A stretch of DNA of 64,000 nt, taken from the NCBI RefSeq assembly GCF_964355755.1, contig NC_092680.1, positions 18,515,001 to 18,579,000 of the forward strand, read 5' to 3'. A model generated the notes under the pieces. That model made no database searches. It worked only from the letters and a program-made list of their open reading frames with translations, and was not told the origin of the DNA. This document shows positions 17,443 to 56,500 of this stretch, piece by piece; position 1 is the first letter of the stretch; each line of letters starts with the position of its first letter. The position numbers and the translations under genes are program-made. The DNA is from Antedon mediterranea. Lineage: Eukaryota > Echinodermata > Crinoidea > Comatulida > Antedonidae.

Positions 17443-18480
17443 TTGTACATGATCAGAACAACATAATATACAACATTCATTTACCTCCGCCATGTTTCTG
17501 AGTGCTTTCATTTGTTTGTTTGTTAGCAGGATTACTCAAAAAGTAATTACAAGATCTTTACCAAAATGAATGTACAGATAGATTAAATTCATTATATTTT
17601 TGGACAATTTGGGACCACGGTCCCAATTCTGGACCACTTTTTAATATACTTTTCAGTTCTGCTAGTGTTAAAAGATAGGACAGAAATTTCAAATGCCGGT
17701 GAGCAGTCTTAAAGTAACAAGTAAACAAAAATTGTATATTATTTTTCTTCTTGAAAGGCGGGTTACATAACCTTTATATCAAACTCGCGCACACACGCTT
17801 ATAGTGTAATTATCCTAATTCAGACACAGCATTAAGACACACACCTTTTTCTACAATTTTGTCTCGTTCATAATGCTAGCAGTAGCCTAGTAGTTTTTAG
17901 GTCGTTGGGAATTTTAAACATGTTTAATTTTCTCCCGTCTGGCCTCGTCGAACTACTGTCGGAGTTGGCCTTAAGAAAAGTATCACGGTCGTTATCGTCC
18001 TGGTATGGTATGGGTGGTACGGTATAGCAGCCTTTACGATTGTAAGACACTGGGAACGGAGGCCTACATTACAACAGTTTGGCTGGATTTAAGGAAATCC
18101 ATCATGTTTAAATATTTCATTTTCCTTTGTTATACCAGGGAAGAGTTAAATTACTGTAATTTAACTCTTCCCTGGTTATACACGTAGGTCTAACTGATTC
18201 ATAAATAATTCTAATCTAAAACTCAATCTAAAAAAAATGCATATATCTCTTTGCATTCTTACTAGAAATTTCCCTATGAATTCCTGTTCCCGTTTGCCTG
18301 TTGTTAACACACGTACATACTATTGTTTGTTTAATTTAATTTCCGCCACTTGTAACAATCTACAAATTCACAATCTCCGTAACTCTCCATCGTTAAGTCA
18401 ATTCATTTGCTACCGTACCTATACATTTCATTCTGTAACTAACTAAATAGAAATTGAAAAATGTATTTCAAGATTCAATT
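17443..18480. other. Intergenic with duplicated fragments
   Basis: No gene supported. A GGTCGTTATCGTCCTGGTAT stretch at about 17988 is echoed at 23229 (GGTCGTTATCGTCCTAGTGT), and AACTCTCCATCGTTAAGT at 18381 is echoed near 23323. These fragments belong to the same segmental duplication as the sialyltransferase copies. The small open frames here follow the duplicated DNA and look non-coding. Confidence 0.5.
18136..18174. mobile_element. Mini-palindrome insertion P1
   Basis: A 39 bp near-perfect palindrome starting CAGGGAAGAGTTAAATTA and ending with its reverse complement TAATTTAACTCTTCCCTG, around a central CTG. It is flanked on both sides by GTTATAC (18129-18135 and 18175-18181), a 7 bp direct repeat that looks like a target-site duplication. 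Confidence 0.7.
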
Positions 18481-18494
18481 TTATTTTGCCAATT

Positions 18495-19290
18495 AAAATG
18501 GAAATAATATGAGTATATTTTTTAAATTTTAAAATGTATATTAATAAGTATTACTATATACAATATTTATATTATTTAAAACAATCAATATATTAAAACA
18601 GACTTGAATACCAGGGATACATCATTTTAAAAGCAACATATAAGCACATCAAAAATACTATTAACATTACATTATACTGGTTCCAATAATTAGATAAAAT
18701 ATGCAATAAAACTGGCTAAAAGAATAAATGAAAGTGTTGACTTTTCTATGCTTAGACCTACTATTCAGCGTTATACAACCTGATCGAGTAAGGAACACAA
18801 CTATTAATCTTTTATCTCTCGGTTCTACATAGATCTATACAGATCATTTCATTTTTATTTCAGTTAAGTAAGAAGTTAGATTATTAAATATTTTTATTCA
18901 CCAATACAATACAATACAATACACGTACCAATAAGAAACAAACGTGTTGTCTAGTGTATTAAGAGTACTGAATTTGATGTAGGCCTAGATGAAAGGGATC
19001 TCGAAAAAACCACTAGAAGATTGTGATAGGAAGCCCACTACATAGACATATAAAGTGGCTTGTGTTGCCCGAAAGCTCTGCTAACTTTTCTGGCCGTTTT
19101 GTTTTTAAATGTATTCAACCAGGAAACAGGAGGTGATTAAAAAATATCTAATCATGTTACAAAGAACGAATTGATTTATAGTATAGGATTCAAGTACATT
19201 CTCACTGTATCATTTAGTGAAATAGTTATTTATCCATGGAAATGGAACAAGTGTGACTGAGCTGAAATACTATATTCACCTCATTCAAGT
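18495..19290. repeat. Duplicated 5' flank of second sialyltransferase copy
   Basis: About 18495-18680 matches 12345-12530 and about 19105-19260 matches 12940-13075, both upstream of the intact gene. In the intact gene the first exon follows about 110 bp after the second block. Here no ATGGCTACTAAT-type exon follows, so exon 1 of the second copy appears to be deleted or lost. Confidence 0.65.
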
Positions 19291-19509
19291 ATTGTTTATC
19301 AAAGTGGATTTATCAAAATGCCTTTGATGTAATGTTTTCCAACATGTATTCAAAAACAACAAAGAGATGCTGAATAGGAAAATGATTACAAAGAAACATT
19401 TGTGTTAGATAGCAAAATCACTTTAGTTTCACGATCTGAGTATGAATGCGTAATAACTCTCCTTAGGCCTAAACAAAGCTTAAAAAGCTACTGTAGGCTA
19501 CATTAAAAC

Positions 19510-19745
19510 TTGTTTATGGAAGACTATAGATATCTCCATTAATAGAGATATCTCTATTTAAAACTAAGGTATCTTAGTTTTAAATAGAGATATCTTAGTT
19601 TTTAATAGAGGTCTTAGTTTTAAATAGAGAATCTCTACTTAATAGAGATATCTTATCTATATTCTTTATAGAGATATCTCTATTTAAAACTAAGACCTCT
19701 ATTAAAAACTAAGATATCTCTATTAAAAACTAAGATCTCTCTTGA
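19510..19745. repeat. Compound fold-back repeat
   Basis: Many direct and inverted copies of AGAGATATCTCTATTTAAAA and CTAAGATATCT-type words, so that large parts can pair with each other in a cruciform. No coding capacity. It may derive from nested palindromic MITEs or from template-switch replication. Confidence 0.75.
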
Positions 19746-20740
19746 ATAAATGACATATGGCGTGCCATACTTGTTCTGTTTTGTGCAATAATTGTTGTTA
19801 TTATATATTATTAATATCAGAGTCATATATACTTTCTTTTCTCATTCTCTCTGAGTAATTAATTGTTCATTTGTAATGTTAATACACATTCTAATGCTTT
19901 TCTAGTTGTCTAAACATCATTACAGTACAGTAGGTTTTAGCTAATAGAAAAAAATAGTGCACAAAGCCTAACGTGAAAAAGGGAAAATGTATAAAACCAA
20001 TTCCATTATTGAAGCGTTTCCACCAAAGGAATGCCCCATATAGTCACTATACAGTCGCCATTACTTCTTAACAAAACGCCTCAAAAGAAATGTATGAAAT
20101 TGGAGTTGTTATTCATTGTATTTTATTGTCTTGATGGTTTAACCGTGGAGCTATGGTAACAACGGCGCTCATGAATATTTTTCGTTCAGCTACAATGCTT
20201 CTTTTCTATCAGTATCTGATTTATTTTTTTTTTTTTTATTTTAGTTTTAAAAATCAATAACAAAAACGGAATAAAAAATGTCTACCCGGATTGTTTAGCC
20301 TACATTAAACTTGTTATAGTGGTGGTTAGTATAATTGCATCCCTTAATAGTTTGCTAAAAGTTGTCAGAACTGTAGATCAGATATATTACTAATTATTTG
20401 TATAATCATGGACCTATAATTTAGGTCCATGGGTTAATATTACCAAAATGCTTTAATGCATACCGTATTACATCATTTAAGCTATTAATTATATTAAATC
20501 ATTTCCCCTTTTCAAGTTTATATCTATTATATTCCAGTAACTACTCATTTTATGTGTGTATATAAGGAAATGTAGAAAATAAGCGACTCAAGTTGACTAC
20601 ATTAAACTTCTATAATACATTTTACTGCAAAACTAATACAATCAAATTTCCTCTACCTCGCTATCTCTCCCTAATTAACAACAAATAAACACCACTTTTG
20701 CCGTTTGTTTAAAGATGAGTATATCAGTCACATATCCCTT
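19746..20740. other. AT-rich intergenic or intronic stretch
   Basis: Upstream of the exon-2 duplicates of the second sialyltransferase copy. Contains a short perfect hairpin ATGGACCTAAATTATAGGTC-like around 20409-20432 but no exon resembling exon 1. Confidence 0.4.
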
Positions 20741-20750
20741 TTTTCAATAG

Positions 20751-22108
20751 GCTGGTAGTAGGTGTAAACAATTCAAATTTCAGCACACACCCGGAACTAA
20801 GTCTCTCAGAGAAGTTCAGTAGACATATTAACCAACAAGCTCTTGTGAAGTTCAAGTAAGATATTTTGTTAAAACTAAATTAATAATAGAACAGTATTTC
20901 ACTAAAAAATATAAATATATGCAGTAGGCCTTCCACTCAGCAAAAAATAAACATCACTTTTTCCGGTTTTTTTCAGTGGGCTGGTAGGTGTCAACAATTC
21001 AAATTTCAGCACACACACGGAACTAAGTCTATCAGAGAAGTTCAGTAGACATATTAACCAACAAGCTCTTGTAAAGTTCAAGTAAGATATTTTCTAAACA
21101 TTACAGTATAATTATAAATACAGGCCTAATAATAGAAAAGTATTTTGGACATAATTGAATATCGTCATCGGCACAAGAATGATTAAATATCATTTGTTTC
21201 TTGTATCTAAAGCTTTGTCTACACTATCAAAGTTTATGTGAAAAGAAAATGTGATATGCCCATAGGGACATGATGATGTCATATTTCTACCATATTTGGG
21301 TAAATCATACTTTTTTTGATAGTTTGATAGTGTGGACAGAGCTTTACTTGTATATTGTATTAAATTTATCCATCAGCTTTTTTGTCATCGTATTTCATTA
21401 TGTAGTAGGCCTATAGCATATTTGCAGCATAATATAATTTAAAAACAAAAATAATAATAATAAACAATTTTTAGATGTAACTAACTGCGCATGATGATTT
21501 TATGATAGACAAGCCATTTTTGCAGAAATATTGAATGGAAATAGTGTAGCCTACCATCCTACAAAACACTTTTTTTTCTATTTTAACAGACAGAAGATCG
21601 TGAAATATAATAAACGGTTTGACGCCAAGTTGTGTATTCTACTTTATGATGGAAATTTACATAGTGATATGTTTAAAAATTGGTCCAATCGAAAGACCCG
21701 TCCCAAAGAATCTCCTCCTTTAGGGACATACGACACATGCGCTATTGTAGGCAATTCAGGAGTGTTAAAACATAGTCATTGTGGAGAGGAAATTGATGAA
21801 CATGACTTTGTTTTAAGAAACAACATGGCACCAACCGAAGGCTTTGAGAATGATGTTGGTACAAAGACAAACTTGATGTCCATTAATGGCGAATTAGTCA
21901 AGACAATAACTAATTGTTTTGAAAATACTACATGTAGTCCTACATATTTGAAGAAAGTTAAAGTATTGAATGATACCATATTATGGTTTTCACGGGTTTT
22001 TTCTCCAAGTGTTCGTCAAAAGCAATATTATGCGCTATCGACTTTTATCAGAAATCACTCAATACCTTTCCGAATCGGTTTTCCTACAAAGCCATTGTCT
22101 ACAACTGA
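20751..22108 (+). pseudogene. Second ST8Sia-like sialyltransferase copy, missing first and last exons
   Basis: Recognisable exons are 20751-20855 (2a), 20977-21081 (2b) and 21590-22108 (3). Exons 2a and 2b are duplicates of the stem exon, each 105 nt, open, with intact AG and GTAAGAT borders and the same phase. Exon 3 is open over its whole 519 nt and encodes a complete sialylmotif L (CAIVGNSGVLKHSHCG, HDFVLRNNMAPTEGF), differing from the intact copy mainly after residue NLMSIN. No exon with sialylmotif S, III or VS was found downstream, even though the 3' flank of the duplicated unit reappears at 23085-23225; no membrane-anchor exon was found upstream. Without motif S and the VS His-Glu pair the product could not be an active enzyme. 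A truncated secreted product or splicing to exons outside the window is conceivable, but a recent pseudogene is the simpler reading. Confidence 0.75.
21209..21344. mobile_element. MITE family 1, copy d
   Basis: AAAGCTTTGTCTACACTATCA at the left and TTTGATAGTGTGGACAGAGCTTT at the right, with a TA next to both ends. In the intron between exons 2b and 3 of the second sialyltransferase copy. Confidence 0.85.
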
Positions 22109-22841
22109 GTAAGTGAAACTAAACTATCTTTTTCACTTTAGCAATATGAACAATATTATATACAAAAATTGATTGATAAGTTGACAAGAATAAAGCATGC
22201 TCAATAAATTGTCTTTCACACCTGTTCTGGTACGGTTCCGTCCGGTGTTGGTATCGTTATCAGAACTATTGCAAGCATAGGCCTCCACATCCACAAGGAT
22301 AGGATATAATACAGTATCCTGTTCCATTAGGCTTAAGCATATATGCAACAAACATTGTTTATATGCCTACATCAACGTTTATCTTGTTAGGCGGCGGCCC
22401 AACAAACCTTACAAGTTCAATATTTTATTAACCGATTCCTATTCTCTCAATTGTGTTGATCGAACCAAGCATAGGCCTATAGGCAAAGACTCAACTTAAC
22501 AAATGGCATTCACAACACTAATCCGGGAAAACCGCCTCTGCTGAAGAAATAGCACAGACACAGTGCAATATCTTAAACAAATTTTACTGTACATTCTGCT
22601 GGTGGATGTTATACTTGCATTAATTTAAACCTCTGTGCAATTTTCGATAGCTCCATATTTGTACACTTTTAGCACCTCATCCCAACCATCATGTCCTCTA
22701 CATTAATTGATCAGATGGCCTACCTGCATGAGTCCAACCCTCTAAACATTAATCCACACCTCTCTTCAGCTTCTTTTTGGTCCACTTTTTCAACATTCGC
22801 ACCCATCCAACACTGCGTTGTAGTCTAAGTATACTTGTTTA

Positions 22842-22998
22842 TAACTTCGCTTGTCATTGGTTAAAACGCTTGCGTTGCGTTTACGTCCTTGCGTTACGTT
22901 CTAGTGGGAACCAAGCTTTATAACTTCGCTTGTCATTGGTTAAAACGCTTGCGTTGCGTTTACGTCCTTGCGTTACGTTCTAGTGGGAACCAAGCTTA
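22842..22998. mobile_element. MITE family 2, two right-half fragments in tandem
   Basis: Two consecutive, nearly identical 77-79 bp units (TATAACTTCGCTTGTCATTG ... GTGGGAACCAAGCTT). In other copies this sequence is the right half of a palindromic element whose left end starts GCGTGGTTCCCACTAG. The left half is absent here. Confidence 0.75.
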
Positions 22999-23084
22999 AC
23001 ACGTTATACTGTATATAACTACAAACGAAATCAAACATAAATTTAACCTATACCTGTTTTAATTCAACGTGTATAATATTTAGT

Positions 23085-23270
23085 ATAAACGATATTGACG
23101 ATCTGGTGTATTAACATGTGATTTAGTTTAGTGAAATGAAAACAAATAATTATTATTTATTTGGTAAAATAAAGTAGCCAATAGTTTTAGAATAAATCTA
23201 TTATCATTTCTTTGTTTATGTAAGCATGGGCGGTCGTTATCGTCCTAGTGTGTATTATATCAGCCTTGCA
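23085..23270 (+). repeat. Duplicated 3' flank of sialyltransferase unit
   Basis: Matches 16360-16545: both contain GACGATCTGGTGTATTAACA, GTGATTTAGTTT, AAAATAAAGTAG and TTTCTTTGTTTATGTA in the same order. The distance from exon 3 to this block (about 980 bp here, about 1110 bp in the intact gene) leaves room for a last exon, but none is recognisable. Confidence 0.7.
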
Positions 23271-25600
23271 TATTATTATTATTGTTAATGTCATTTGGAA
23301 CAATCTCCCAATTTGTATGCGAACTCTCCATCGTCAAGTTAAGTTAGCTACCTATACCTGTATTTCTGCAAATACATTAAATTCAAATTAAACAACTTTA
23401 AGTTAATTAAAAACTTATAAGCATGCCATATCAACAAAGGGCAGTGAAAAACTTTAACTCTGTCGTCTGCTTCCTGTAGGCCTATGTCGTTTTTATTAGT
23501 ATCAGTGGGAAAGCCACTTTGCGTTTTGACCGTTAAATCGTGTAAAATCGACTTACTTCCGCATTGACGATTTTGAAGCGCCACCTATCGTTGAAAACTG
23601 AAACCACGATTTTTCGTCGCCTAGCAAATAAGTGCTGTTTTATTTTAAGCTCTCATGAATATTTAAGAACCGCCCAACATTACCTATTATGGTAAAAGCA
23701 TTTCCTAATAAGTATAATTGAATAACCAATCGGTTTCTTTCAAAGAAACCGAAGCTAATACAATACATTCGGCGACTGAAGTCGGGACTCGTGAAATTTA
23801 TAAATGTGGTACGATTTGACTACTGTTTTGTTGTCCATTTTCTGAATAGTCGGAGGTGCATCCCAACAAATTAAAACAATTATAATCAATTGTTTTATCA
23901 AGAATAATATTAGTTTAATCGAGTATGATATATTTCTATCCTGTTCAAAATTTGTTGGTGTATTCTCAGGCCTCGAAAGGTAGGTACATTTTCTAGCTGT
24001 GAGCGTGGTTTCGGCAACGCGAGACACGTGTGTCAGTATAGGCGATAGCGAGACGTGTGTTGTACTGTGTTGATGCTGATCCGATAGTCGTTAAGTTGTA
24101 CTGATTACGAGTATCATTGGTCCTGGCCGGCCTAGCCTGGTGATCTGATCCCCCCAAAAAAATACTTTTTTTCAATCAGTATTAATATATTATTTGATTT
24201 ATTAGGCTCAATAGATGCCTAGCTAGGCTACTAGTAGGCCTAGGCCTAGATTATAAATAATAATAGTAAATACTCTAATTTAATTAATAAAATACAGCTT
24301 CCATTTGCCTTACTTTTATGTCATCATATAATATTATAATTATATATACAACCAGACATTAACATTTTTTAAAATAATATTTATTATTTTTTTCTGACAC
24401 TTTCAGGAATCGTTGATGATGCAGAGTTCTTTTTCTTTGTGACTTCAAACTGAGAGTGAAGTGGATAAAAAGATGACACCGGTACCTACCGACATTGTCA
24501 TACCCAAACTATAATTTAATTATTTAAAACAAAATGTTGAATTACAAAAATGTATGTTGCAGAGGATTTAGATGAATATTACAATACAAATATTTATGTT
24601 GAATGCAAACCTACTACACTATACTCTGTAAATTATGTTATTGTCATGTGGTAGACCTTAAAAATTGAATATTTATTGTATGTTAGGCCTATTTTATATT
24701 TTATTATTATTAATACTGTATTAGTTTAATATTTATACTACAATGTATTAATTTATATTATACAGTACTAGTTTGTACATGTTTTTACCCCAAAAAAATG
24801 AATAAATAATTTGTTATTCAATCTAATTGCTTGTTTGTTCATCAATAGCAAAACAATTGTAAGCAAGTATATAACAGTTCTTGTTAGCCGCTTATTTCAG
24901 GTCATATTATTAATATTAGCTAGGCCCGACGCGCCCGACCACAACGTCACTAAGTGACTTTCCGCCCCTGGAACAATCGCTCGCTAATAGGGCTAGGCCT
25001 CGGACTCGTATAAAAGCTATTATAATAGTTATGATAAATATTCCTCAACTAACATGTATACTGTGATAAATAAACAAGTAATAATATACGTTGTATTGGA
25101 ATGTATTTATTTATATGAATTCTTATACGCGGACAATTATAAACATCGCGTATATCGTTCGCTATAAATAAATTCATAAACACGATGACGATGAGTTTAC
25201 AAAATGGCGGTTTCGCTAGTTTTCGATGGAACAAATAGTGGTACCTTTAGTTTGAATAGTCGGAGCTGCATCCCAACCACCGAATTTTGTATCTTAATTT
25301 CGTATTCTGTAGATTATTAATTTTTCTAACAGGGATTTTAAATTCAGGACTGTTCAATTTTTCTAAACATTTTATTTTAATGATTTTCTAGGGTACAATT
25401 TCGGAAAAAAGACATTGGTTGATTTTGCCGTTAAATTACAGATTATCGTTTTGTTCAAATACATTTAATTTTACATGATAATATATTAAAACCATTTATG
25501 AATTTATTTCACTAACAATATTTTTCCGATAATCAGCTAAATTTACAAATATTGTGTTTTAACACCCTAAAATTTAGCAATTTTCAACTAAATTAGAAAA
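23271..25600. other. Gene-poor stretch
   Basis: No exon supported. A GAATAGTCGGAG(G/C)TGCATCCC word occurs at 23846 and 25254, each followed by AACAA or AACC, suggesting two ends or copies of one unidentified repeat. GGCCTAGGCCTA runs occur near 24230. Confidence 0.4.
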
Positions 25601-25606
25601 GTAGGG

Positions 25607-25850
25607 CGCCCTCTCCGAGTCGAAATTTGACACGATTTGTCGACTGGCTGTCCCACTGGTATAGAACAAGTCTTCTCGGATAAGGACTATAAACCGTGGT
25701 CCAGTGTACATCTAGCTCATGTGCACTTTAAAGAACCTAGTACATCTTTCGAGACGAGTAGGGGGTTACCCTGGTGTACTAGTTCACACACAGAATTGCC
25801 ACTGTCACAAACTGGGCCCTTAGGAAGAACCTTCTTAGACTGAAGAGGCA
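25607..25850. repeat. Unidentified dispersed-repeat-like segment
   Basis: A GC-richer 240 bp island in AT-rich DNA containing GTGCACTTTAAAGAACCTAG and GAGTAGGGGGTTACCCTGGT. Its composition and lack of open frame suggest a repeat fragment, but I cannot assign a family. Confidence 0.3.
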
Positions 25851-26269: not shown

Positions 26270-26535
26270 GATGGATTCAACCATTAGCAAACAGGGGTGA
26301 AGGCAAACATAAACTCTTTACATTGAAGATACCTAATCATGTTATAAAGAACGAATTAATGTATTGTATAGGATAATGGAGTGGAGTGCTCCATGGTAGG
26401 ATTAAGCAGGGAGGTAGTATACCTCCCTGGATTAACCTGCATTCACACTGTACCATTCAGTGAAACCTTATTTATCCATGGAAACGAGTGTGAATTTAGC
26501 TGTGAAATACTGTATTCACCTCATTCAACTCTTAT
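26270..26535. repeat. Third copy of sialyltransferase upstream block
   Basis: Contains TTCAACCATTAGCAAACAGG, GTTATAAAGAACGAATTAAT, TCACACTGTACCATTCAGTG and CTGTGAAATACTGTATTCAC, in the order found at 12940-13075 and 19105-19290. No sialyltransferase exon follows it. Confidence 0.6.
26407..26429. mobile_element. Mini-palindrome insertion P2
   Basis: CAGGGAGGTAGTATACCTCC followed by CTG: a 23 bp palindrome with one unpaired centre. Flanked by GATTAAG (26400-26406) and GATTAAC (26430-26436), a 6 bp direct repeat or 7 bp with one change. It lies inside the third upstream block. Confidence 0.65.
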
Positions 26536-26550
26536 GCTCAAATATAGTGG

Positions 26551-27750: not shown

Positions 27751-27753
27751 TAA

Positions 27754-28537: not shown

Positions 28538-28540
28538 TAA

Positions 28541-31187: not shown

Positions 31188-34100
31188 TTACAATCGAATT
31201 TTAAATGAACTGAAAGGAAAAGTAATAATATTAATTTGGAGATATCATATTAATAATATAGTATTAAAAGTGCTGAATTCTAATATCCCGACAGAAAAAC
31301 TTCAGGAAACTGAATTCATTTTTTGTACGAAAAGAGATATTGTTATCTTACTATAATTCCATTATTCTTGGTTAATATAGCTATTGTTTGGTTTGCTGGG
31401 GTGGAAACATCTCACAAGGTGATAGGGACAGACTACAAAGGTTGGTTTGCTGGGGTGGAAACATCTCACAAGGTGATAGGGACAGACTACAAAGGTTTGT
31501 TAATAAGTTTGAGAGGATTATCGGTACAGAACTGCAATCGGTCTACCAAGAGCGATTAGTTGGTAACTTCGATGACGTAATGTCTGACGAAAGTCACCCG
31601 TTGCATTCGACTATTAGCAGTTGCATAGTACAACGGAGCGGTAAACTGAGGGTACCGGCGGCTAACACGAACCGATATCCCAACTCTTTCATTCCAAGAG
31701 GTATTGGCCTTTTCAATAGAAGATATGTTGTTATTAGTTATATTCTTTTGTCTTTAGTTAATTCTGTTTTTATATTTTTTGAGAGAAAAAGCTAAGAACA
31801 CTGTAATTTCCAAATTTATGGATGAATAAAGCGATGTCTATAACCATATTTGGGAGGCAGAAATGCGGAATCTGTTTGGCACACCATATTCAATGGTCAA
31901 TTCTTATGAAATACATCACAGCCTTAACCACTCGGCAAAGTTAGGTATTAGGGAGCTTGAGATTTACAACGACCGAAATACGTCTTAGATATTTGGACGT
32001 GTGTCTTCACCTCGACAGAGGTTTAAAGATTTCTAGGTCCAAGCGATGACCAACGAAACATTGATTGACCTGAATTGAAAAGCTCCCTATCATCTGAATA
32101 CAAGCCTTCAAAGTCTTAGTTCAGAAACCATGGGTTTTAATATCTAGCCATGTACGCCATCTTTTTCGGACCAAGGTCTCCCTTTATAGGGCTGCCTCCA
32201 CAATAGTGGTGTCCCCTCAATAGGACTGTACCCTCAATAAGGCTGTCCTCTCAATAGTGGTGTCCCCTGAATAGAACTGTCTCCTGCATAGAGCTGTCCC
32301 CTCAACAGGACTGTCTCCTGCATAGAGCTGTCCCCTCAGTAGGGCTGTCGACTCAATAATGGTGTCCCCTCAATAGTGGTGTCCCCTCAATAGTGGTGTC
32401 CCCTCAACAGGGCTGTCCCCTCAATAGTGGTGTCCCCTCAACAGGGCTGTCGCCTCAATAGTGGTGTCCCCTCAACCGGGCTGTCCCCTCAACAGGGCTG
32501 TCCCCTCAATAGTGGTGTCCCCTCAGCAGGGCTGTCCCCTCAGTAGAGCTGTCCCCTGCATAGGGCTGTCCCCTCAGTAGAGCTGTCCCCTCAGTAGGGC
32601 TCTCCCCTCAGTAGGGCTGTCCCCTCAGTAGGGCTGTCCCCTCAGTAGGGCTGTCCCCTCAGTAGGGATGTCCCCTCAGTAGGGATGTCCCCTCAATAGT
32701 GGTGCCTTCTGAAGGAACGTCCCAATTGAGAGGTTCTACTGCACAGTGCTATTAATCATATCTGTTCTTACTTGATGAAGTCAGGTGCTTTTGAAATGAC
32801 ATGTTCAAATTCAGCAAAGGACAGGTGGTCATCGTCATCAAGATCAGCCTCTTCAAAAATCTAAAAATAAAATTGAGTTCAATCATTTAAACATAAACTA
32901 GCTGATACCCATCCTATCCTCTCTGTAGATGTTGTGATACAGCACATGTCTGTTAAGCTCTGTCTAGACTATCAAGCTGGTTTGACAAAAAGTGTGATGT
33001 GCCAAAAGTATGGTAGTGATATGCTAAAACATGGTAGTGATAGACATCATCATGTCCATATAGGGGTACATATAACATTTTTGTTGTCATATAAAGTTTG
33101 ATAATGTAGACAGTATTTTTTTGCTTGTGGGGACTGCCTCCTCTCAAAGAATATATGTAATTGTCGTAGGTAGTATTCTTGATTGTATAAAGTACATGAG
33201 ACAACGTGCAGGGTCATGTCCATATATATATATGGGCACATCACATTTTTTTTTCCCAACAAATTTGATAGTGTAGACAGAGCTTTACTTCATCATAGGA
33301 AATATTTAGGACTTGTTAAATCAGATGAGACACACATGTGATGGTGTATTATATATTTTGTATAAATACAGAATCTAGATATAGAATGGTGAATCGGTAA
33401 GTGTATCCAATTGAAAATATTTCACTTTACATTGTTAATAAGATGTTGCATATCCTCGTCATTTAACGTCTGTTCACCGGTCAATCTATTGATGACCTCT
33501 CGAAGGTCACTACTACCAATAAAATCATCCTCATCAAAATCTTTTAAAAAAATTACAGAAATTATTATTATTATTCTTGTTTGTTATTCATATACAGTAT
33601 TGTTCTTGAGCAGTTACTATTTCAAGTTATGTTTACACTATGACACAAGTTCTGTACCATAAGTAATATTAGCAAGATTTCTGTGTGGACGATAATTTAG
33701 CAGACCGTAACAACTTGTGTACCTTAGACACATCACACTCATTCATCTACCATCTCAAAACAAAAGATTGATAAAAACTGTTGCTGGGTGGGTAAGAGTA
33801 CAATCATGTATGCGACTATACTCGGTTATTGTTATTACTGGTATAGATTTTTTCTTGTACACAATTTCAATGTTTGGGAAACTATGGGAAAGGGTACACA
33901 GAAGCTTTGGGAAAAAAGAATATGTATATACATGTGAACACATGTTTGCATAAATTGTTGACATGGTTGGAAAACATTTAGGGCACAAAGTTTTTGACAA
34001 CCAAGCATTATAGTATGACAATTACCGTAAATCCTGAAAGCATATTCTGCCTTGACAGATTTGGGTGCATTGTCACTGAATACAGACATCATGTCAAGAA

Positions 34101-41379: not shown

Positions 41380-44300
41380 TCATGCCATCTTCAGACAAGC
41401 AACATTAAATCCATCACCACGGTACCTATTCACAAGGCCTAGTAGAGTCTGTTTTTTATGCATGCTCCTGGATGACTCCAGTTCATATAGGGTACACAGG
41501 TTGAATAGAAGGCCTTCGTCTAGATACTTCTCTGGGTCCTTATGCACAAGGCTTTCAAGCGATGCCAATGCCTCTCTTAACTTTCCCATGTAGAGCTGAC
41601 ACACCGATAGGTTGTTGACGGCCTGTTAAAAAGCATACCATGAAATTACACTTTAAATTATGCGTTACAAGACATTTTAAAATTACTTAAAATGAAATGT
41701 ATACTTACTTACTTAAAAGTAACAAATCACCTTATTATTCTGCTTTAATATATAGTATGAAAACTTTCATAGCAATTGTTGTTATATATTCAATAGAATT
41801 TCTTCCGTGTAAATTTATTCATGTCAATAATATTCATGTTATTACTGTATTATGCATATTACTGTATTTCACAGTACAGTCTAGGGGCCTGGCTAAAAAA
41901 TGTAGTCAAAATTATGGGGTAGGATTAATACTAAATAGATATACATATACAATATAATTAGTCACTTTATTATTGCTGTCAAAATACAATTTTTCCCTTT
42001 CTAAGCTATTTCTGTTCTTTAAATAATGAATGAACTTACTATATGGTTTGTCGGTTCTTTCTCAACAACCTCTAAAAACAGTTTATATGCCTCTGGGTAC
42101 ATGTGCTGAGAGAGTCGCATCAGAGCTCTGAAATAAGAAAAAAATAATCTGTGATTGTCTCATTTGCTTGAATTTTGTTAGTAAGGATTCCAGTTATTAG
42201 TAATATATATTTGTTAATTTTATGTTTTACGTAGAGTTGAGGGTCTTGTGTGCTACTGTATGTATAAATGAGGGAGATATAAAATATTATTATTATAGTT
42301 ATTTTATACCTCCCTGTATAAATCAAGCTCAGTCATTCTTCCTTAGTAAATTACACTTTATTTACACTAATTTATTATAGTGTGAATTGGGTAAGTTGAC
42401 CAAGAGGTAGTCGCATAAAGCATTCACACTGGACTTCATTCTCACCTGTTCATTGATACCTTTACCATTGGTTTATCTCTCTTTGTTGTACGGGTTTCTA
42501 ACTCATGAAATGCTTTTTGCGCAGACTTTAAATCACCAAGCTAAAATAAATTACAATATGTTTATTGAACCTGTTGAGTAAAGTGTGGTTCCCGCTAGAA
42601 TGCAACGCAACCTGTAATAAAATGCCCTTCCAATAATTGTGTTTTCCCCATCTGTGTGAACTAAAACCTGCTTGTTGCGCATCAACTTTGATCTGGTTCA
42701 CACCACGTATTTGGCTATGCGCTGTACTTTGTTTTCCTGTGTTGCGTGAAATCAAACTGATTTCCTGTAGCGATATTTGCATAACTGTTGCATCGTCGGT
42801 TCCCATATGTGATTACGCAATACAACACTTTGTGTCGATACCTTGCACTGCGTTCTAGTTGGAACCACGCTTTAATGCTTGTGACAAAGGCTCCATTTGA
42901 ACTCTAGTAAATCATAATTTATTGTAGTTTGGTTGTTCTCATGCTTGCTTACCAAGAAATGTTCTTTCTTATATTAACTATAGTGATGTATTGTACCAAC
43001 ATGAGAATAAAAGTGTGGCTGCCATTTGACAACCATGATCATGCAATTGTTCTTCCGTCATGGTTACAACCTCACTTCATACTGTAACAAGACTTAGTTT
43101 AGTTCAAGTTTACCTGTAAATGTATTCGTCCAATACCGGATAGGAGTTCTTCATCATTGCTTTCATCTTTTTCAAGTAACAATTCAAATATGGTGGCTGC
43201 CTTATTAAAATCCTGTAAAATAAATGAATGTTTTTATATGTTTTTAAATAAATAAATAAATATGTTTTTAAATAAATAAATATGTTTTTAAATAAATAAA
43301 TATGTTTTTAAATAAATAAATATGTTTTTAAATAAATAAATATGTTTTTAAATAAATAAATATGTTTTTAAATAAATAAATATGTCTTTAAATAAATAAA
43401 TATGTTTTTAAATAAATAAATATGTTTTTAAATAAATAAATATGTTTTTAAATAAATAAATATGTTTTTAAATAAATAAATATGTTTTTAAATAAATAAA
43501 TATGTTTTTAAATAAATAAATATGTTTTTAAATAAATAAATATGTTTTTAAATAAATAAATATGTTTTTAAATAAATAAATATGTTTTTAAATAAATAAA
43601 TATGTTTTTAAATAAATAAATATGTTTTTAAATAAATAAATATGTTTTTAAATAAATAAATATGTTTTTAAATAAATAACACAATTCTAATACAAAGTAA
43701 ATATATAAATTAAATTTATCAAACTTTTTTATCAAACATTTCATTTATTATAAATATGTGTGATGATCTAAACTCAACACATAACAGAACTTAAACACCC
43801 CATTCAAAGTGACCAATGACTAACACAGTGCAGTTACTTACCTTCATAGCCAACAGACAATTTCCAATTGAATATAAAATTCTTTTATCTCTTGAATTCC
43901 ACAGTTCAATCGAAGCTATAAAAATACAAAATTTATATCAAAATTGTTGTTGCCAACAGCCCAGGATTAATGTGACAATTTACAGTGAAATGAATGAGTT
44001 TAAAAACTGTATATGTTTAAACACTACAGCCAATGGGTTCTGCTGGAAAGGTATTGGGATCGGCCATCATAGACACTTTGCATGATTGTTTAAGAATAAG
44101 GACAATATGCCCTAGCTTTACAAATGTCGTGCCTAAAAGTGTAAAAAATACAATTTGACAACCGTGAAGAGCTTTTAAATTGAATCTAATAGATGAGATA
44201 TAAATTGCAAAATGTAATTTTATACCTTTTTTACTTTCTTCTTTTAGTTGAACAGGACTACCATCTTCAGCAAGCCCTTCATTTAAGTTTGATAATATCT

Positions 44301-47300
44301 AAAAAGACAAAAAAAATGTATTCTTACAAAATTTCTGAAAATGCCAAAAGTAAAGTAGGCCAAAAGTCCTGTAGTCATAATAAACAGGTGTGAATCTAGG
44401 AAACAGAAATATAAAAATGGCTTTTTTTGTTGGGAAAAAACCATTTACCTAAATTGGGGATCGGTTAAGACCTATTGTACGTCCCTAATCTTATGTCTAT
44501 AATAATACTGAGGTTCACAGAGTTTCTTGCGTTTATAATCTGGTAGTACACTAAAATATAAACAGGACCTCCTACAGTATGGTAATGATATGACATCATC
44601 ACGTCCATATATGACATCATCACGTCCATATATTACTCTACTGTAATGTCTATATAGCGGGACTTGCATAGTTTCTTGTAATAACCATAGTTAGCTTTGT
44701 GAGGCAAGCCACTTTTTTTAGAAAAGGAGCCATTATAAAATGTTTTTCAGAACTGTTCAGCACCTTCATCACACCATAAACCCACCTCCTTCCAAACCTC
44801 AATCTATACTTGATAGAAGTTAGGGCCTACCTTTCCACAAACTCCTTTAATCTTGTAGAGTGTATCAAGAGACTGCTGATGTTTTCCTGCATACTGCAGT
44901 AATTCTGCTTTTAAAACACGTAGTGAGAAGGGCACCATAGAACCTGGGAAAACATAGTATGATAATTATCAAAGAACATATTGTCAATACTTCTTATAAT
45001 GTTGTATTTGTATGAGGTTAGAATACTTTGATCTTAATTTGTCTTTGGACTTTATGTTGTCTTAGTTAAATTTACAGTAAATAATGATCAAATTAAACCT
45101 TGTAATGAAATAAACTTTAAAAGTCAAGTTTAATAAATGTACAATGCTGTTCGCATTGAATTTTTAAGGTTGGTTAAAGTAGCATGGTAAATCCTGAACA
45201 AATTTAATTGGGAAATTTGACCAAGAAGAAGTTACTAAAAGCATTCACAGTCCTTTCTTAAGGCTTTGTCTACACTATCAAACTATATGTGACAACAAAC
45301 ATGTGATGTGCCCATATATGGACATGATGATGTCATATCAATTATCACTACCGTATTTGGGCATATCACTACCGTATTTGGGCATATCACTACTATATTT
45401 GGGCATACCACTACCATATTTGGGCACATCACACTTTTTTGTCAAACTTATTGATAGTGTAGACAGAGCTTTATGGCAACAATGAGCCATCTTTACCTTT
45501 TCTTCCAGGATACAGATCTGGATAATATTCAAAGTACAAATCAGGCCTTTCAAAATCTCCAAATGCATTTGTTTCTGTTTCAGCAACGTTATATAGACGA
45601 AGCTTCATTAGTAATGCAATTCTGGTCAACCATACCTATGGGTTACATGCAAAAATATCTCAATATTTAGGCCTATCAAACAATATCCATTTACATAGTT
45701 TATTAATCTGAGAATGACTAACAGTGCTTGGATTTCCAGCCATATAGATGTTAAATGAAACCGAGTCCACGTTTACTCAAACTGAAAACTCCCTAAAACT
45801 TTGTTTACACTATCAAAGATGTGATGTGCCCATATATGGACATGATTAAATCACTACCATATTTACACATCACATTTTCTTTGTCAAACTATTTTGATAG
45901 TGTAGACAGAGCTCAATAAATTAATGGGTATGTGACACCTTTTAGATATAAATTAATTTTCTAAACCAACATATTTTGGACCTATCGTTGGGTAGACTTT
46001 TAACATAGTCCTTTGTAAAGTAATTATGCCATGGGAGAATTGTGGGTATGTTATCAAATAATGACTTACTTGCAAAGACTGGGGTGATTGTTTACTTGGT
46101 AGTCCTACTTGACCAGCACCTTGACCATGGATGGCTAGAATTTGTGCAGTAAGGTCAACAGCTGCTCTCAAACAACCTTTGTCCTGAAAGTATAAGCAAA
46201 TATTAAAATTTCTTTATTTTTAAAGAGGTAACCCTTCCAATTTAGCCCAGTGGGTTCATTTATATTTAGGGCCCTCTTTAATAAAATGAATTTACAATCT
46301 TATTGTACTATTATAGTAAAACTTCTCTAAGTGCTTTCATACAATCTGTTTTTGAGTTGACCAATCAAAAGCAAAGCTTGAATAACCCATTACTTGTGAT
46401 TTGTCAAATCACTTGCATTGCACTTACGTTCTTGCTTTGCATCGTATTGTAAAGCATTAAAGGAATTTAACATTGTCAAATGTTCAGCAATGGTTAGCAA
46501 GTATAATATACTAAGACATACCAACAATTGTTTTAAGCCCAATTCATCTTTGGAGACTTGGTTTGCAGTGAGTGAGGATCGTTTAGTACCTTCTATTTCA
46601 CCCATGTATCGAACAACCAGTTCGAGAACCGGGTCACCCTATAAAAATTCGTAAAAGTTACGTTAGTGAGCTTTCGATTTGTGATGACCTAGAATCTTAG
46701 ACTTGCCCCAAGTCTGTATTATCTTTTTTTTTTATTTATTTGTTTTTATTTCGACCGCGAATTTTGTCTGAAAATACACTACTAGAATCTATGCATTATG
46801 TCATTTTTCCAAACATCCCTGCTTGTGACATCTGTACACCCAAAAAAAGGTTTAAATGCACTGCGCCTATCTGTGGGAACTGAATCTACAGCTCTGTCTA
46901 CACTATCAAACTGTGCCCATATATGGACATAATGATGTTATATCACTAGCATATTTGGTCATATCACACTTTTTTTGTCAAACTAATTTGATAGTGTAGA
47001 CAGATCTTAAGGTGATCACCTCTTACCAGATTCGACCAAATTGTGGTCTGAAAAGATGGACAAATTTGTCTTTAAACCAAACTTGTATAGTATATTTTTT
47101 TTTTATCAATTTAAGATATTTATGCTGTTTTTTTACTTCCTGCCTCTCATCATTGCTCGGAGATCCATTAAACATTGTTTTTTACGCTTTTGTGGGACGG
47201 TGGAGGGTAAGCATGTTAATCCAGTTTCTTGTAATTTTAACATTAACATGGCTAAATAAATGAAATGCGGTGGTTTAGTTGTAGTCACAATGTTCTCCAA

Positions 47301-48585: not shown

Positions 48586-48603
48586 GCCTTCTTTTATTCA
48601 ATT

Positions 48604-50526
48604 CTACATATAAATGAAGAGTACAGCATGTGTTATAGTGTAATATAATAATGTTTTTTAGATTGGCGGTTTTCGATGGTTTCGAATCCAGGACCAAATC
48701 TATGGGAGCACTGACTGCTCAACCATCTGACTGGCTTATGATGAAATGATGTCATATACTGTATAACCTATTAGTATTAGCAATTGAAAAACAAAAACTG
48801 GAATTGCTGTGCCATGCAGCTAGTATGCGCCGCTAGTATTGTCATTGACTCACAAAATAAATTTTTTAAATACCTTAATTAAAATAAATTGCAGTTACAA
48901 TACCTGCTGCAGCCTCAAGCAAAACAAGGCTCTAGATCATGCTTAGACCTAGTTACACTCTATAGCTACGACATTATATGCCTAGTTACAGGCCTGCAGT
49001 AGCTTAGTTTAGAGCAGGCCTAGGCCTAGCCTAGTCTAGCTAGAGGCCGCCCTGCTGCTGGGCCTAAGAAGGAGGCTAGGCCGCCTAGCCTAGCTTGACG
49101 AAAAGCCTTTTTAGGAGGCCTACTAGCCTCTACTACTAGCCTACTACCACTAGCCTAACTGGTTAACCTAAAAAAACTGCATAATTAATAAGGCGTAACC
49201 TATAAGAGTTAAATTACAATATTTAGTGGTTAGAATACATCCTTTTTTAACTTAATAATAATAATAATAATAATAACTGGTTTGTTGGCTATGCTGCCCT
49301 CTAGAGTAAACAAACTCTCAAGATCTTGTCTCGGATCAAATCAATTCACCTTCGATCTTTTTTTTAAAGTACAAAATAAAAACATCAAAAACAAGAAGGC
49401 TTGAATGTCGTCAATCCAATCTTTTATTTATTTTAATTCTGAAAACTTCATATTACCAGGAAAGAGTGAGATAATTACAATACCTCATGATACTTAGCAT
49501 CAAATGTTTTGTTTTCAAGAATGTAAACATTGTTTTGTATTTGTGACGTTCTTAGATATTGAGTAAAAAAAAAAGTTTTTACGAACATTTCCGGTCCACG
49601 AGCGAAAGAATATGCAAAAAGTGACGACGACTAGAGCAACAAATCCGCTGTCACAACCCCGGCTGAGGCCATGGAGCGATATAATCGGATTTCCATAATC
49701 TAGTTAATTGCAAACACATGTGAGCCGTTTTTTTATTCTTCTATAGTGGATATACTTTACCTTTTTGTTTCAATGCGCTGCCAGCGCCGCCTAGTTGAAG
49801 GTTCTTCACAAATATGTTTTTGTAAGATTGCAATCCAAATGACCATCCGGATTATAAGAAATGGTCTTTGTGGTTCTGTGTGGAGGTTTTTTGGCATATT
49901 AGATTTCTTATATTATTACTAATTCGTTTTCTACATAATGCAAAAACGCCTGTAGCCTACAGGTTGGCTAGTAATATTATAAAAAGCATATTTTTAAACT
50001 GTAGGTCCTATTTAATGAATGTAAAAGTATTTTATTTATAGTATTTTTGTAGTGTTATCGTTTCATTTATATAGAAATATTCCCTGATTTCACTTTGTTC
50101 CTCAGGGCCCACCTCAGGATCTTCGGAGGTTGTATTGTGTAATTTTAGACTGACCTGTGAATAAGAAAGTTGACATAACACAGATATTACAATAGATTAT
50201 TTCTGAGTACATAGTATAAAGTTCTTGGCTCTCTCAACAAACTTTTCAGCTCTCAAGACAATGTACAAATCCTGTTTTCCAATCTCAAATGAATAGGGGT
50301 GGTCACTTTTAACGGCCGGTTAGGCATCTTATATTTATTATTTAAATTAGCTTGGCATCATACGACGTTAAGTCATATCCTTTAAAAGAAAAAAAAGATC
50401 AGCCATGCACAACGATTTAGTGTAAAAAAACATCTGTAGTGAGGAGACCTCCAGGCTGCATAATACAGTATATTGGCTCTGTTTGAAATTCTGCTGTTCC
50501 TGTCATTAAAAGTAAAGACATTCAAC
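48604..50526. other. Divergent interval between TRAPPC12 and the SLC5 gene
   Basis: Holds both promoters. GGCCTAGCC-type composition around 49010-49150 and an (AAT)n run at 49253-49277. No additional exon could be supported, although non-coding 5' exons of either gene are likely here. Confidence 0.4.
48663..48733 (-). repeat. tRNA-like (SINE head) sequence
   Basis: Read on the minus strand: GCCAGTCAGATGGTTGAGCA, GTCAGTGCTCCC, then GGATTCGAAACC. The parts resemble a pol III A box (TGGTTGAGCAGTC) and B box (GGATTCGAAACC) at tRNA spacing. No closed cloverleaf could be drawn, so a tRNA-derived SINE remnant is more likely than a tRNA gene. Confidence 0.4.
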
Positions 50527-53500
50527 ATGGTAGACGTAGAGAATGCACCACGATTTAGCATTGCTGACTATTTAGTGTTCATATCAATGCTGATTGTATC
50601 TGCTGGTATTGGTGTTTACCATGCTCTTACTGGGGGTAAACAGAAGACAACCAACGAATTTCTTTTGGCCAACCAAAACATGAATCCGATTCCTGTTGGA
50701 TGTTCCCTGGTGGCGAGTTTCATATCGGCCATTACATTTCTTGGAACGCCTGCTGAAAATTATATATATGGACCAATGTTTATGCTATATGGTTTCAGCT
50801 ATGTATTTACAGGATTTGCAACTGCCTATATGTTTATGCCTGTATTCTATAGGCTGAATGTTACAAGTGCATACGAGGTAAGCTCTCATCTGATAATAAA
50901 TTATAGATGTCTGCGCAGGGAGATGTAAAATAAATTTATTTTACATCTCCCTGGTCTGCGCAACTATTTTCCATCCCGTTTTTAAACAATAAGTTGTACT
51001 TATCTGATTACGAATTCCTAGTTCAAATTCATTAATGGGACAGTCACAACTGTTTTTAAATAGGCCTTAGGCCTAGTATTAGATGTTAATAACTTTCTAA
51101 AGTATATGCCTAATGGTTTTGTTTGAGGGCGTATATGCAAAAAAAAGTTTGCGTAACTACATAAAGGTTTGGAAACGGTAGATCAGAGTAGGTCAAGGGT
51201 CATCTTATTTTGAAAATCATAAGTAGGTCAAGTGTTATGTGTGGGTGTGGCTCGAGATCAGAATATTCTTTACTCCATGATCAGAATAACGAATGTATAC
51301 AGTCAATAGACAATTTTCAGCTGTTTTTCAGCATGTCGTGTGTGGCCGCCGTACTGTACCGGGGGTATTGATCTATTTTGAGTGACTTTCAGATCTCTAT
51401 CTCTAAAATAGTGTTTTTCTCAGTTTTTAAAAATAAAGGAAACGGTTGCCACCCGCCTTCTGTCTTCTTGGGTTCATTTCAGCCGCATAGGCCTACTAAT
51501 CTAACTTGATTGAATTAAAAGAGTCGTGTCAAATTAATTCGATAGAGTGAACACATTTTTATAAAAATGGAAGCGTGGGCCTAATATGATCCAGTGGCGG
51601 ATCCCACCTCTCCAACCCCCCCCCCCCCCCCCCCCACGCCCCGCCTATAAATCTGGAGAAAAATTTATCCTACCATAAGGGAAAAAAAATTATCCTACCC
51701 ATAAGGAAAAACAATTTGAGGATCCGCCCCTGTGATCCAGCTGATTTTGTTTTCGTTTCATAGATTATTGTTTACATTAATTTGTTATTACTGTATACTA
51801 CCAAAGTACCCGAATCTGAAACTTCCCAGTTACAATTCCGGTCATTTTTTCAGATGTGCATGGATTTTACAACTTTGTATCAATCGAACAAACGCACAAA
51901 TACAACGCTCTTTCTTTTTCATTTGAGTTCGCAAGTGATACACGCCCCCTATAATGATCTGACCTTGAACAAAGCGTCATCTAGGGAGGGACGCGTTTAT
52001 TATGTAAACGGTTTCACTTTACTTTACACTGTCATTCAGATCGGCATCATTTCAAGTAACTTGCAGTGCATCTGAAGAACAAAATGGACGAAGAAAGTAT
52101 AAAAAGACAATTTGAAGTTGCCGACTATGTGGTTTTAACGGCCATGTTGGCAATTTCAATGAGCATCGGTTTATTTTATGGATGCACCGGAGGAAAGCAG
52201 CAAACTACCAATGAATTCCTGATGGCGAATAGGAATATGAATCCATTCCCGGTTGGAATATCTTTGGTGGCCAGTTTTATATCCGCAATAACAGTACTGG
52301 GTACTCCAGCAGAAAACTATGTATATGGGTGTATGTACTGGATGTTCGCGTTTGCATACATCTTAACTGGTCTTGCTTCGGCTTATTTTTTTCTTCCAGT
52401 TTTTTACAATCTTCGAGTTACAAGTGCCTACGAGGTAGGTTGTATCATTTACACTCATTGTTACATAGCAAATGTGTTTAGTGTTTACTTATCTACAATT
52501 ATGGAATTATGGAATTCACTCCCCTATTTTGTTCAAAGCTCAAAAGGTTATTTTTGTGAAATTCTTAGATTAAGAGAAATTGAATTTGCTATTTGTTTGT
52601 GTATTATGTTTAAGTAATTGTGGTTTTCCTTGTTTATTCTGTTATATTTGTTTAGGACCACAATGGAAATAAGTTTGCCGTCTCGGTACTTTTTTGTGTT
52701 TTGTTTGTGTTTGTTTTCACTTTTGTGTACTTTACTTTTTGGGACGGTGTATTTCAGTTTTCTTTTGCAGAAAGTTATAGTAAAGTATGACATTTTAGGA
52801 GTAGAGGCCTATAAAATAGCATCTATATTTTATTGATAACTTCGTCCGGAACAGAGTTACATACATACGTGTTGATTATCTTGTTATGAATGAATAATAG
52901 AGACAAGCACCATTATTTTCACTTGTTTTGTGGACGAAATAAGTTATCTTAGGAAAACGAGCAGATAAGTTTTGAATGATGTCTAACGTCTATTCTTATT
53001 GAACTTTTAATTTATATATCGGACTTTTAATTTCTCCTATTTGATTTTGTAACTTTATTTTAATACATGTTTTATATTTACTGACTGTATTATTCATCCT
53101 GTAATGACTGAAGTCTGTTTCATGTTATGGTCACTACAATGGAGTGACCAATCCCACTTTCCAATTGGTGGAAAAACAAAAACATTCCCCTATGACTGCT
53201 GAGGTTACATAATTACATCTCAGGTAGTTGGTTTTATTTTATATTTTTGTATCACATTCAACTACGTTTGGCTTGCAATAAATGAACGGATATATACTCA
53301 AAATTAGGTGTCTTTTGTGTCAACTATACACATCCAAAGATGTGTGGGTGTTGGACGGTCATCAAAAAGATTAGGTTCCTGGGTTTACCTTTCAGATGTA
53401 CTTTTAATGGTTTTGGATCGATAGCATGTTGACTGACAGCCAAAAAGAGCAATCTTTTCCGTGTGGTTTTGTCCTGGAGATTGGCTAAATCTATTGTAAA

Positions 53501-56500
53501 CAATTTTAACTGACACTTCGAAGGTCACGCTTTTGTTGTTAAATAAAAGAATTACGAGTGTCTTTGAGAAAGAAAACTTGATGTATCCCATATTCTATCA
53601 TTTAATTAGCTTTCTTAATCATTAATACAATTTTTTTCCCTGAAAAAGCTGTAATTTAATGCAAACAATTGTCAAATTGGCTGCCAGCTAACCATTTATT
53701 TTGTCATTTTATAAGTGAAAACATTTTTTTATAGATGTATTGTCCCCCCAAAAACATGAACATTTAAGATTAATTAAATCAAACTTTGAATATGCCCATA
53801 GTCTTAACAAAGGTAATCACTTCCGTAGAAAAAGAAAACCGAAAAAAAATGTTTTCACTTATAAAAATGACAAAATAAATGGTTAGCTGGCAGCCAATTT
53901 GACAATTGTTTGCATTAAATTACAGCTTTTTCAGGGAAAAATTTTTTCCGATCCAATTTGTTGTCAAAATGAATAACTGTGTGACAAGCTAGTACAGTAA
54001 ACTGTGTGTTGATTATCTTTACCAATATATTATCTTGCTACTATTTCGACTCTGTTATCGTTATTCACTTCGTGCCCATTGACACATGTACGGCCATAAC
54101 ATTATCTCCATCTCTCCCACTGCGTCTTCCTTCATCCCATTCCTATCCCTCCCCTCCCTGTGAGTCAGTTGTTCATCTCCGTGTCAACTTTGGTATAGGT
54201 TTGCCTCTGTTTCTCTATTTATTTCTACTGGTTTCCATAGCACATGTCCGAACCATTTCCATCTCCTCATGTGTGATTTCGTGCAGTAGCTGGTTTTATT
54301 GAAATGAGTGTTGGTGTAGCTCTAAAGTTACTTAGGGCCTATATGTTGGAATTATTCTTTTAAGTTAAAGAAAAAGTGTCGATAAGTTTCACTTAATTTT
54401 ATTTTACTTGGCTTAAAAATATTTATTTTTAACATAGGCCTATATATGATGGATTTCTCCATGCAAAATCACACAGTGTTCATACCTTCGAAATGTTGCC
54501 AATATTATTATTTATAAAGAACTATCGTTAATTAAGCAATTATTACGCTCGTATAAGTTCATAAACGGTTCTTTTTATTTAAGCAAATTTAGCATAAAAA
54601 TTAATATAGGTGAGTGATTGGCCACGATCGAATGCGTTCTCTCGACAGTGTTGACAATTGTCTGTTGCTACTCCCGTGGTCGACACTAAAGCTCTGTCCA
54701 CACTATCAAACTAGTTTGACCATGGAGGTACGTATACCTCCATGGTTTGACAAAAGAAGTGTGACGTGCCCAAATATGGTTAGTGATATGACATCATCAT
54801 TTCCATATATGGACAATATATATTTTTTGTCACATAAAGTGTTATATTGTGTAGACAGAGCTTTAGTACATTTAAAGAACGAATAGAGTTTGGTCTAAAG
54901 ATATTCTTCGCTCCATTTAGGCCTATGAACACCGTCTTTAATTCATATGCCTTTGTAAATACATTTCTTTATACAGGTACATTTTCTTTATTGTTAACTT
55001 TGTTAAGCGTGGTTCCCACTGGCGACGCAACACAAGGACGTAACGCAACGCAAGTGAATTGACCAATCACAAGATGGCTTATTCGCTTGTGATTGCTAAC
55101 TGTCTATAACTTTGCTTGTCATTGGTTAAAACGCTTCCGTTGCGTTTACGTCCTTGCGTTACGTTCTAGTGGGAACCAAGCTTTAACAGTATACAGTAGT
55201 AGTATAGTACTGTAAGTTACAGTACATCATACCTTTAAGGGGCAACTTTCGTTGCTGTTGGTTTTGAAGAAATAAAATAAAAATCTGTAGTAGTAGTATA
55301 GTTAATACAAGTACAGTAGCAATAAATAAGTTTCGTTAGAAAGTTCTTCCCTCTTTTTTTTTATTAATCCTCACTGACCTGAATCATATATAACTGACCT
55401 CGATCATATTACTGACCTGGATCAAGTACATACGTATAATATATGAGTGTAAACGGAAACATGTATTGTTGTCCCCTCTCCGAACCCTAACAGAATAATC
55501 GTCACAAACCTACACACATCTGGTTCACGATCGAAACAAAATGTCTTTGTTATCTACTCATTGGTTACGGTGGTACTTCTTCTTCGTCAGTGTAGGCCTA
55601 ATCATCGTTAACTACTCCATGTTTTTCCAACTCCTTGGTTAATTCTTCGTCAGTGGAATAATGGGTATCTACTCCATTTTTTCTTCTAACTGAGACTCAT
55701 TGGTTTATTGGTTACTGATTCATGGATCATGTCTTTGTCAGTGTAACCATTGTTAACTACTCCATATTTTTCTTCCAATTCCTTGATTAATTCTTCGTCT
55801 CAGTACAATAATACTTAGTTATCAACTCCATGGCCTATCTTTCTTCTAACTCCTTGTTACTTCTTTATCAATCATGTCTACGTCAGTTCAAACATCGTTA
55901 TCTAGTCGATAGTTTTTTATTCATAAAAAGAGAAACATTTAAAAAAAAAAACGAATATAGTATTTTTTTATTTTTTTTTATTAAACTTTGTTTAATGAGG
56001 GTGACTCAAAACAGCCGAGGCTGACATGCATGAGTTTCGTGTGTTTATCATGGAAGGTTAGAAGACTATATTGTTTTAATATGAAAAGTGTTAAAAGGTT
56101 AAAGCACATATCCGTATGAAAGGGCAAAAGAGCCGTATAGGCCTACGTATGCTAAAGTGCAGTTATGTACCGTACGTAGATAAAGAAGCCGAGCGATATA
56201 ATGTAAGAGCTAAACCACATGTTAAAAGAGCCGTACCATATGGTAAAAAAAACGAATTTTTAAAGAGCCGAAAAGGAGTAATGCTGTTCCATAGAAAATT
56301 GCCACCTTATTTTGACGATTGTTGCATAATGTGGGCACATGCACACTTTTTTTAATCGTCATTTTGGCTCATTTTCATGTTTTTTTTAAGAATGAGATCG
56401 GGGGAAATGATAACGAAATAATTATATTTCATCCCTATCCGTCCTAAATTAATAAATCAAGCCAGTCATCTTTTGTGTGTTATATAGTATGAAAGGTGAT

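Follow-up and report, generated by a model that had tools for sequence, protein, structure and literature searches.

The closest described counterparts of the structures analysed here are the footprints left by excision of the Drosophila P element. Its transposase cleaves one strand at the tip of the element, and the cut in the opposite strand falls 17 nt further in (PMC7776569). The excision junctions of spn-A flies consist of one copy of the target-site duplication, at most 17 nt of one element end, a microhomology or insert, at most 17 nt of the other end and the second target copy (PMC2895639). In Table 1 of that work the flanks are 8-bp target duplications, and 40 of the 63 isolates are palindrome-like, with 16-44 bp, and others are one-sided. 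Galileo, a member of the P superfamily in Drosophila, has a 7-bp duplication, GTAGTAC (PMC2775673), while the P elements of D. melanogaster, Anopheles and zebrafish (Pdre2) make duplications of 8 bp, not 7 bp.

The short palindromes of Antedon mediterranea resemble the Drosophila P footprints (PMC2895639) in their two target copies, length-limited stubs of the terminal inverted repeat (TIR) and joints with microhomology or filler, and also in including asymmetric and one-sided products. They differ in the duplication (7 bp here, 8 bp in the fly) and in the stub (about 17-20 nt here, 17 nt in the fly), and whereas the fly footprints come from a laboratory assay with a known parent, the present set is natural, genome-wide and lacks its parent. 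With Galileo they share a 7-bp target duplication of palindromic consensus (GTTNAAC here), whereas Galileo has long fold-back-like inverted repeats, full-length copies and different ends, and the part of the source available describes no scar population. The likeness to Pdre2/THAP9 and Anopheles P lies in a P-type transposase outside Drosophila and in internally deleted relatives (P-MITEs); full-length or MITE copies of those elements exist, and no comparable scar set is described in the accessible parts of their sources. Element ends start with CA in Drosophila P (CATGATG; PMC2895639) and in Pdre2 (CATACC), as they do here (CAGGGA/CATGGA). Like MITEs, the palindromes are non-coding, with inverted-repeat ends and flanking target duplications, whereas MITEs are copies of one sequence; here most sites have an interior of their own, which is not long enough to be mobilised.

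The initial annotation of the window (C11:18515001-18579000, the whole stretch of 64,000 nucleotides analysed) had placed such palindromes, flanked by direct repeats, at five loci. All five are present, and the flanking repeats are exact over 7 bp at four of them; at 26407 the two copies agree at only 6 of 7 positions. The features are as follows, without strand unless one is given.

18129..18135: target duplication GTTATAC, left copy, of the 18136 putative scar
18136..18174: putative 39-bp scar of family C, with CAGGGAAGAGTTAAATTACA arms of about 20+20 nt
18175..18181: target duplication GTTATAC, right copy, of the 18136 putative scar
26400..26406: target duplication GATTAAG, left copy, of the 26407 putative scar
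26407..26429: putative 23-bp scar of family B, with CAGGGAGGTA.. arms
26430..26436: target duplication GATTAAC, right copy, of the 26407 putative scar
42263..42269: target duplication TATAAAT, left copy, of the 42270 putative scar
42270..42316: putative 47-bp scar resembling family B, containing an AT-rich filler; GAGGGA at its left end differs by one base
42317..42323: target duplication TATAAAT, right copy, of the 42270 putative scar
50909..50915: target duplication GTCTGCG, left copy, of the 50916 putative scar
50916..50953: putative scar, family A (CAGGGAGATGTAAAATAAAT arms), a perfect 38-bp palindrome
50954..50960: target duplication GTCTGCG, right copy, of the 50916 putative scar
54714..54720: target duplication GTTTGAC, left copy, of the 54721 putative scar
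54721..54744: putative 24-bp scar of family D, with CATGGAGG arms, lying in a dispersed repeat copy
54745..54751: target duplication GTTTGAC, right copy, of the 54721 putative scar
62903..62915, minus strand: CATGGAGGTCATG, possibly a one-sided scar of short length, flanked by exact GTACATG repeats; it may be chance (control hexamers give 0-3 such matches each)

The palindrome ends are CAGGGA at three loci, GAGGGA..TCCCTG at 42270 and CATGGAGG at 54721. Among window palindromes of 18-60 bp, three are flanked by exact 7-bp repeats, all of the present kind, and exact repeats of 6, 8 and 9 bp flank 1, 1 and 0, respectively; none with exact 7-bp repeats was found in any of eight Markov-shuffled windows. 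The window holds two palindromes of the strict pattern CAGGGAGRT..AYCTCCCTG, against about 0.04 from the genome average, which reflects either local clustering or chance. By eye, the window also contains gene fragments (Pex13-like, and exons of an SLC5-type transporter) and two similar exon-like open frames, sialyltransferase-like and perhaps tandem paralogues, at 14724-15254 and 21498-22112. Minisatellites with 17-, 20- and 23-bp units lie at 32129-32774, 43129-43799 and 59615-60140.

We searched the genome (354 Mb, 18 contigs) with the palindrome patterns and, as controls, with the same patterns reversed. Palindromes of the type CAGGGA..TCCCTG, 18-48 bp long, occur 2171 times (reversed control, 74), those of the type CATGGAGG..CCTCCATG 1057 times (control, 1) and the 14-mer arms of family C 972 times (control, 0), while the strict pattern is found at 244 sites between 18 and 48 bp (control, 0) and at only two between 49 and 79 bp, both of 50 bp. 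The genome-wide comparison with controls that the initial annotation had proposed shows enrichment, with fewer independent events than palindromes, since many sites ride within other repeats. The ends fall into the following forms.

Family A: CAGGGAGATGTAAAATAAAT
Family B: CAGGGAGGTATAAAAT
Family C: CAGGGAAGAGTTAAATTACA
Family D: CATGGAGGTATAAAAATA
Family E: CAGGGAGTTG
Families without a letter: CATGGAGGAAAAAATAAAT and CATGGAGGAAATATACA

At C1:2816765-2816836 (genome coordinates) a CAGGGAG.. palindrome and a CATGGAGG.. palindrome are separated by only 7 bp, an arrangement that would fit the entry of a second element into the first one's target duplication.

The flanks of 45 flank-deduplicated sites, mostly of families A and B, support the initial proposal that a DNA transposase making 7-bp duplications was responsible for insertion: 33 match over 7 bp with at most one mismatch (24 exactly, 9 with one mismatch), compared with one at 6 bp and two at 8 bp. 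Further sites of family C agree with a 7-bp target duplication, and in families D and E it was checked at one or two copies. The duplication follows the consensus GTTNAAC (both directions: G60% T81% T52% N A52% A81% C60%). The 54721 palindrome is located in one copy of a dispersed repeat, of which other copies in the window are uninterrupted and hold a single GTTTGAC, giving paralogous empty sites within the window.

2260..2330, plus strand: paralogous empty site of the 54721 putative scar, unbroken ..CAAACTAGTTTGACAAAA.. with one GTTTGAC
6948..7021, minus strand: second paralogous empty site
46918..47008, minus strand: third paralogous empty site

Since these repeat copies run through a single GTTTGAC, something entered at 54721 and duplicated 7 bp. 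The host is one copy of an abundant repeat with ends TAAAGCTCTGTCTACACTATCAAACT, found in the window at 2254-2413, 4848-4989, 6846-7021, 45253-45475, 46881-47011 and 54687-54866. Another candidate pair of filled and empty sites, L021 and L041, was dropped, as the gap was not clean.

The palindromes share their ends and differ in their interiors, in line with the first description: the outer ends are constant, with 36 distinct cores in the 49 listed sites of family D and 22 in the 27 sites of family E. Most cores differ, by truncation of the arms and not by point mutation. Unequal arms with both 7-bp target copies intact were observed at L097 (20+9), L127 (20+10), L102 (16+9) and L173 (20+6), and in L085 (17+1) and L080 (15+0) one arm is practically lost, again with both copies intact; L177 consists of CAGGGAAGAGTTAAATTCCCTG between GTCAAAT repeats. 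The arms have a limit. The family C consensus shows 97% agreement to nt 17, 63-74% at nt 18-20 and 43% at nt 21, that of family A decays across nt 17-21, and family D arms stop at about 18 nt. Total length tops out near 50 bp, about twice the arm limit plus filler, and the longer family C cases are due to filler, with a tandem copy of about 15 bp in a 66-mer (L141) and ATACATACATACA in the 55-mers.

The joints carry small fillers, trimming or short microhomologies. In family D, whose sample was not flank-deduplicated, the mean overlap exceeds chance with p 0.0002 by site and p 0.06 by distinct core; the effect is weak in family C (p 0.08), and family A has no excess over chance (p 0.52). This indicates that several joining routes are likely, and we suggest polymerase theta as a participant.

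A few cores are identical at unlinked sites (L153/L154 and L102/L119). A MITE would be marked by a single internal sequence repeated many times at independent positions, and this was not found, as the copies of the most repeated core, a 45-mer, share the same flanks. This 45-mer is carried as a passenger by an inverted-repeat element of 2.1-2.4 kb that is flanked by 6-bp duplications, and it was ruled out as a mobile unit by those flanks; 42-, 41- and 55-mers likewise recur with shared flanks. The carrier, inverted-repeat-rich and with ends TATGGAAAGCCAAACCCGCCAAAAATACATA, is seen at L049, L050, L055, L057, L059, L062, L068 and L070 (about 276-2860). Because recurrent scars share flanks or ride in a larger element, they are germline and inherited.

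The structure, the 7-bp repeats, entry into pre-existing sequence, variable junctions, the limits on arm and total length and the P-type genes described below are direct observations, and the anatomy and genome-wide reality of the palindromes are solid. We consider it likely that each is the end-joined excision scar of a transposon whose transposase makes a long internal cut. A P-type cut-and-paste element would insert at a GTTNAAC-like site, duplicating 7 bp, and would later be excised by a staggered cut that severs one strand at the tip and its partner within the TIR, about 17-20 nt in. Both target copies would then remain at the donor site, together with 3' single-stranded stubs, each at most about 20 nt long, from the two element ends, and the stubs would be joined through short microhomology, small fillers or trimming, by polymerase theta or other end joining. 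As the element ends are inverted repeats, the joined stubs would read as a near-palindrome, about 18-50 bp long and flanked by the 7-bp repeats. The arm-length limit may reflect such a staggered cut, with a 3' donor stub of about 17 nt, and we infer the former element at each site, the P-type transposase and the repair pathway.

That the putative departed transposons belonged specifically to the P superfamily is more likely than not. The palindromes show the two target copies, the outer TIR nucleotides up to a fixed limit and the variable joint of a P-type scar, and their 7-bp duplication and ends starting with CA (CAGGGA/CATGGA) agree with a parent from this superfamily, whose duplications are of 7-8 bp. 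To our knowledge, end stubs of this length are left by none of the other well-studied cut-and-paste families. The hAT elements were considered as a source for their CAGGG-type ends, but they make 8-bp duplications and cut at the ends, so that they should leave no 20-nt stubs.

P-type transposases are present in the genome, with 35 matches to PF21787 (the RNase H half) and 12 to PF21788 (the GTP-binding insertion). A 715-aa ORF (counted from its initial ATG; 794 aa between stops), of which there are three near-identical copies, matches the two domains as well as the structure of the Drosophila P transposase (6p5a, E 8.6e-15). Two further P-type transposase types have a weak zf-AD-like match at the N-terminus; at L022, L028, L029 and L031 it stands in place of a THAP match. 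No P transposase was linked to the palindrome ends among the P-type loci read, whose flanks were mostly covered to about 1.5 kb: L016-L045 have no CAKGGA ends with 7-bp repeats within that distance of the transposase match, and 1-kb extensions of L018 and L020 reached no inverted-repeat end.

The search for a full-length element with the same ends, suggested by the initial annotation, gave no full-length or MITE parent among the inward arm pairs followed. The 62 exact 20-mer arms of family A in the genome form no inward pair spaced wider than the palindrome, and none of the inward pairs in the first 100 of the 972 family C arms is a parent. Parents may therefore exist in low numbers. Four candidates were rejected. 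L076 (1098 bp), found by its 14-mer arm, the second arm being a variant outside the 20-mer match, proved to be a different dispersed element that sits within a palindrome of 48-50 bp, as other copies of its interior begin about 24 nt in from each end; this element (L076:101-1198), which measures about 1.05-1.25 kb and has long inverted repeats (..AGGCCAAWTAAAAAAAYATACTTGTTAAGCGTCA), lies at the palindrome centre. L033 (407 bp) is a 5S-rRNA-derived SINE copy between two 17-nt CATGGAGGAAATATACA arms with TTATTAT flanks (L033:2578-2984); the SINE, of about 355 bp, is very abundant, with 1692 first-look candidates, 40 of them scored at at least 93% identity. L140 (427 bp) is part of a larger inverted repeat, with inverted flanks and no direct repeats, and the match at L042 (1877 bp, TAACGCG repeats) is due to chance, as its right 'end' falls inside the transposase reading frame.

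It is unlikely that no full element was ever present and that end pairs of about 20 nt, or true micro-palindromes, were inserted directly with a 7-bp duplication; if so, no smaller insertions made by a transposase would be known from any animal. The proposal that the palindromes are genuine minimal transposons, two abutted ends cut and pasted by a transposase in trans, could draw on perfect palindromes with exact duplications (50916, L008 and L153), on the few identical cores at unlinked sites and on the parent missing from the arm-pair searches. It is nevertheless decidedly improbable: the cores are mostly unlike and vary by arm truncation instead of point mutation, one-armed copies, unable to transpose, still have both target copies, 18-bp copies are too short to seat two ends, and the most repeated core rides in a larger element. 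The palindrome as transposing unit, which the initial annotation had favoured, is thus not sustained by these new junctions and asymmetric or near-lost arms.

We know of no natural precedent for the integration of two end fragments of about 20 nt with subsequent joining of their open inner ends, by which the scar would record an insertion and not a departure. This route would yield the same 7-bp repeats, arms to about 20 nt and variable joint, and requires no parent at the locus, but excision has been shown by experiment to produce this very anatomy (PMC2895639), and we regard end-pair integration as quite improbable. Loss of the middles of full or fold-back elements through replication or gap-repair errors has very little probability. 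Interrupted gap repair after P excision does give internally deleted copies (PMC1562414), but random deletions are expected to leave a length continuum and unequal subterminal sequence, whereas lengths here stop near 50 bp (2 sites at 49-79 bp versus 244 shorter) and the arm consensus ends at 17-20 nt. Chance can practically be dismissed, for although inverted repeats are common in AT-rich DNA and many weak ones occur in the window, the reversed-pattern controls (2171 versus 74; 1057 versus 1), the confinement of the flank match to 7 bp and its absence from shuffled windows all speak against it.

End-joined excision, the reading we prefer, invokes a kind of scar that is already known from the fly laboratory; as far as the open-licence papers searched show, a natural, genome-scale, 7-bp and parentless set is a new variant. 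Scars should outnumber elements if each jump leaves one and template repair of the break is rare. If this explanation is right, one genome would preserve, as a natural collection, the healed sites of very many transposon departures, a record missed by repeat annotation built on element copies, in which many jumps scarred the genome while the elements themselves turned rare or extinct. The cut geometry of a poorly known lineage of the P superfamily, with a 7-bp duplication and a stub of about 17-20 nt, would then be readable from sequence, and so would the end-joining habits of a non-model animal.
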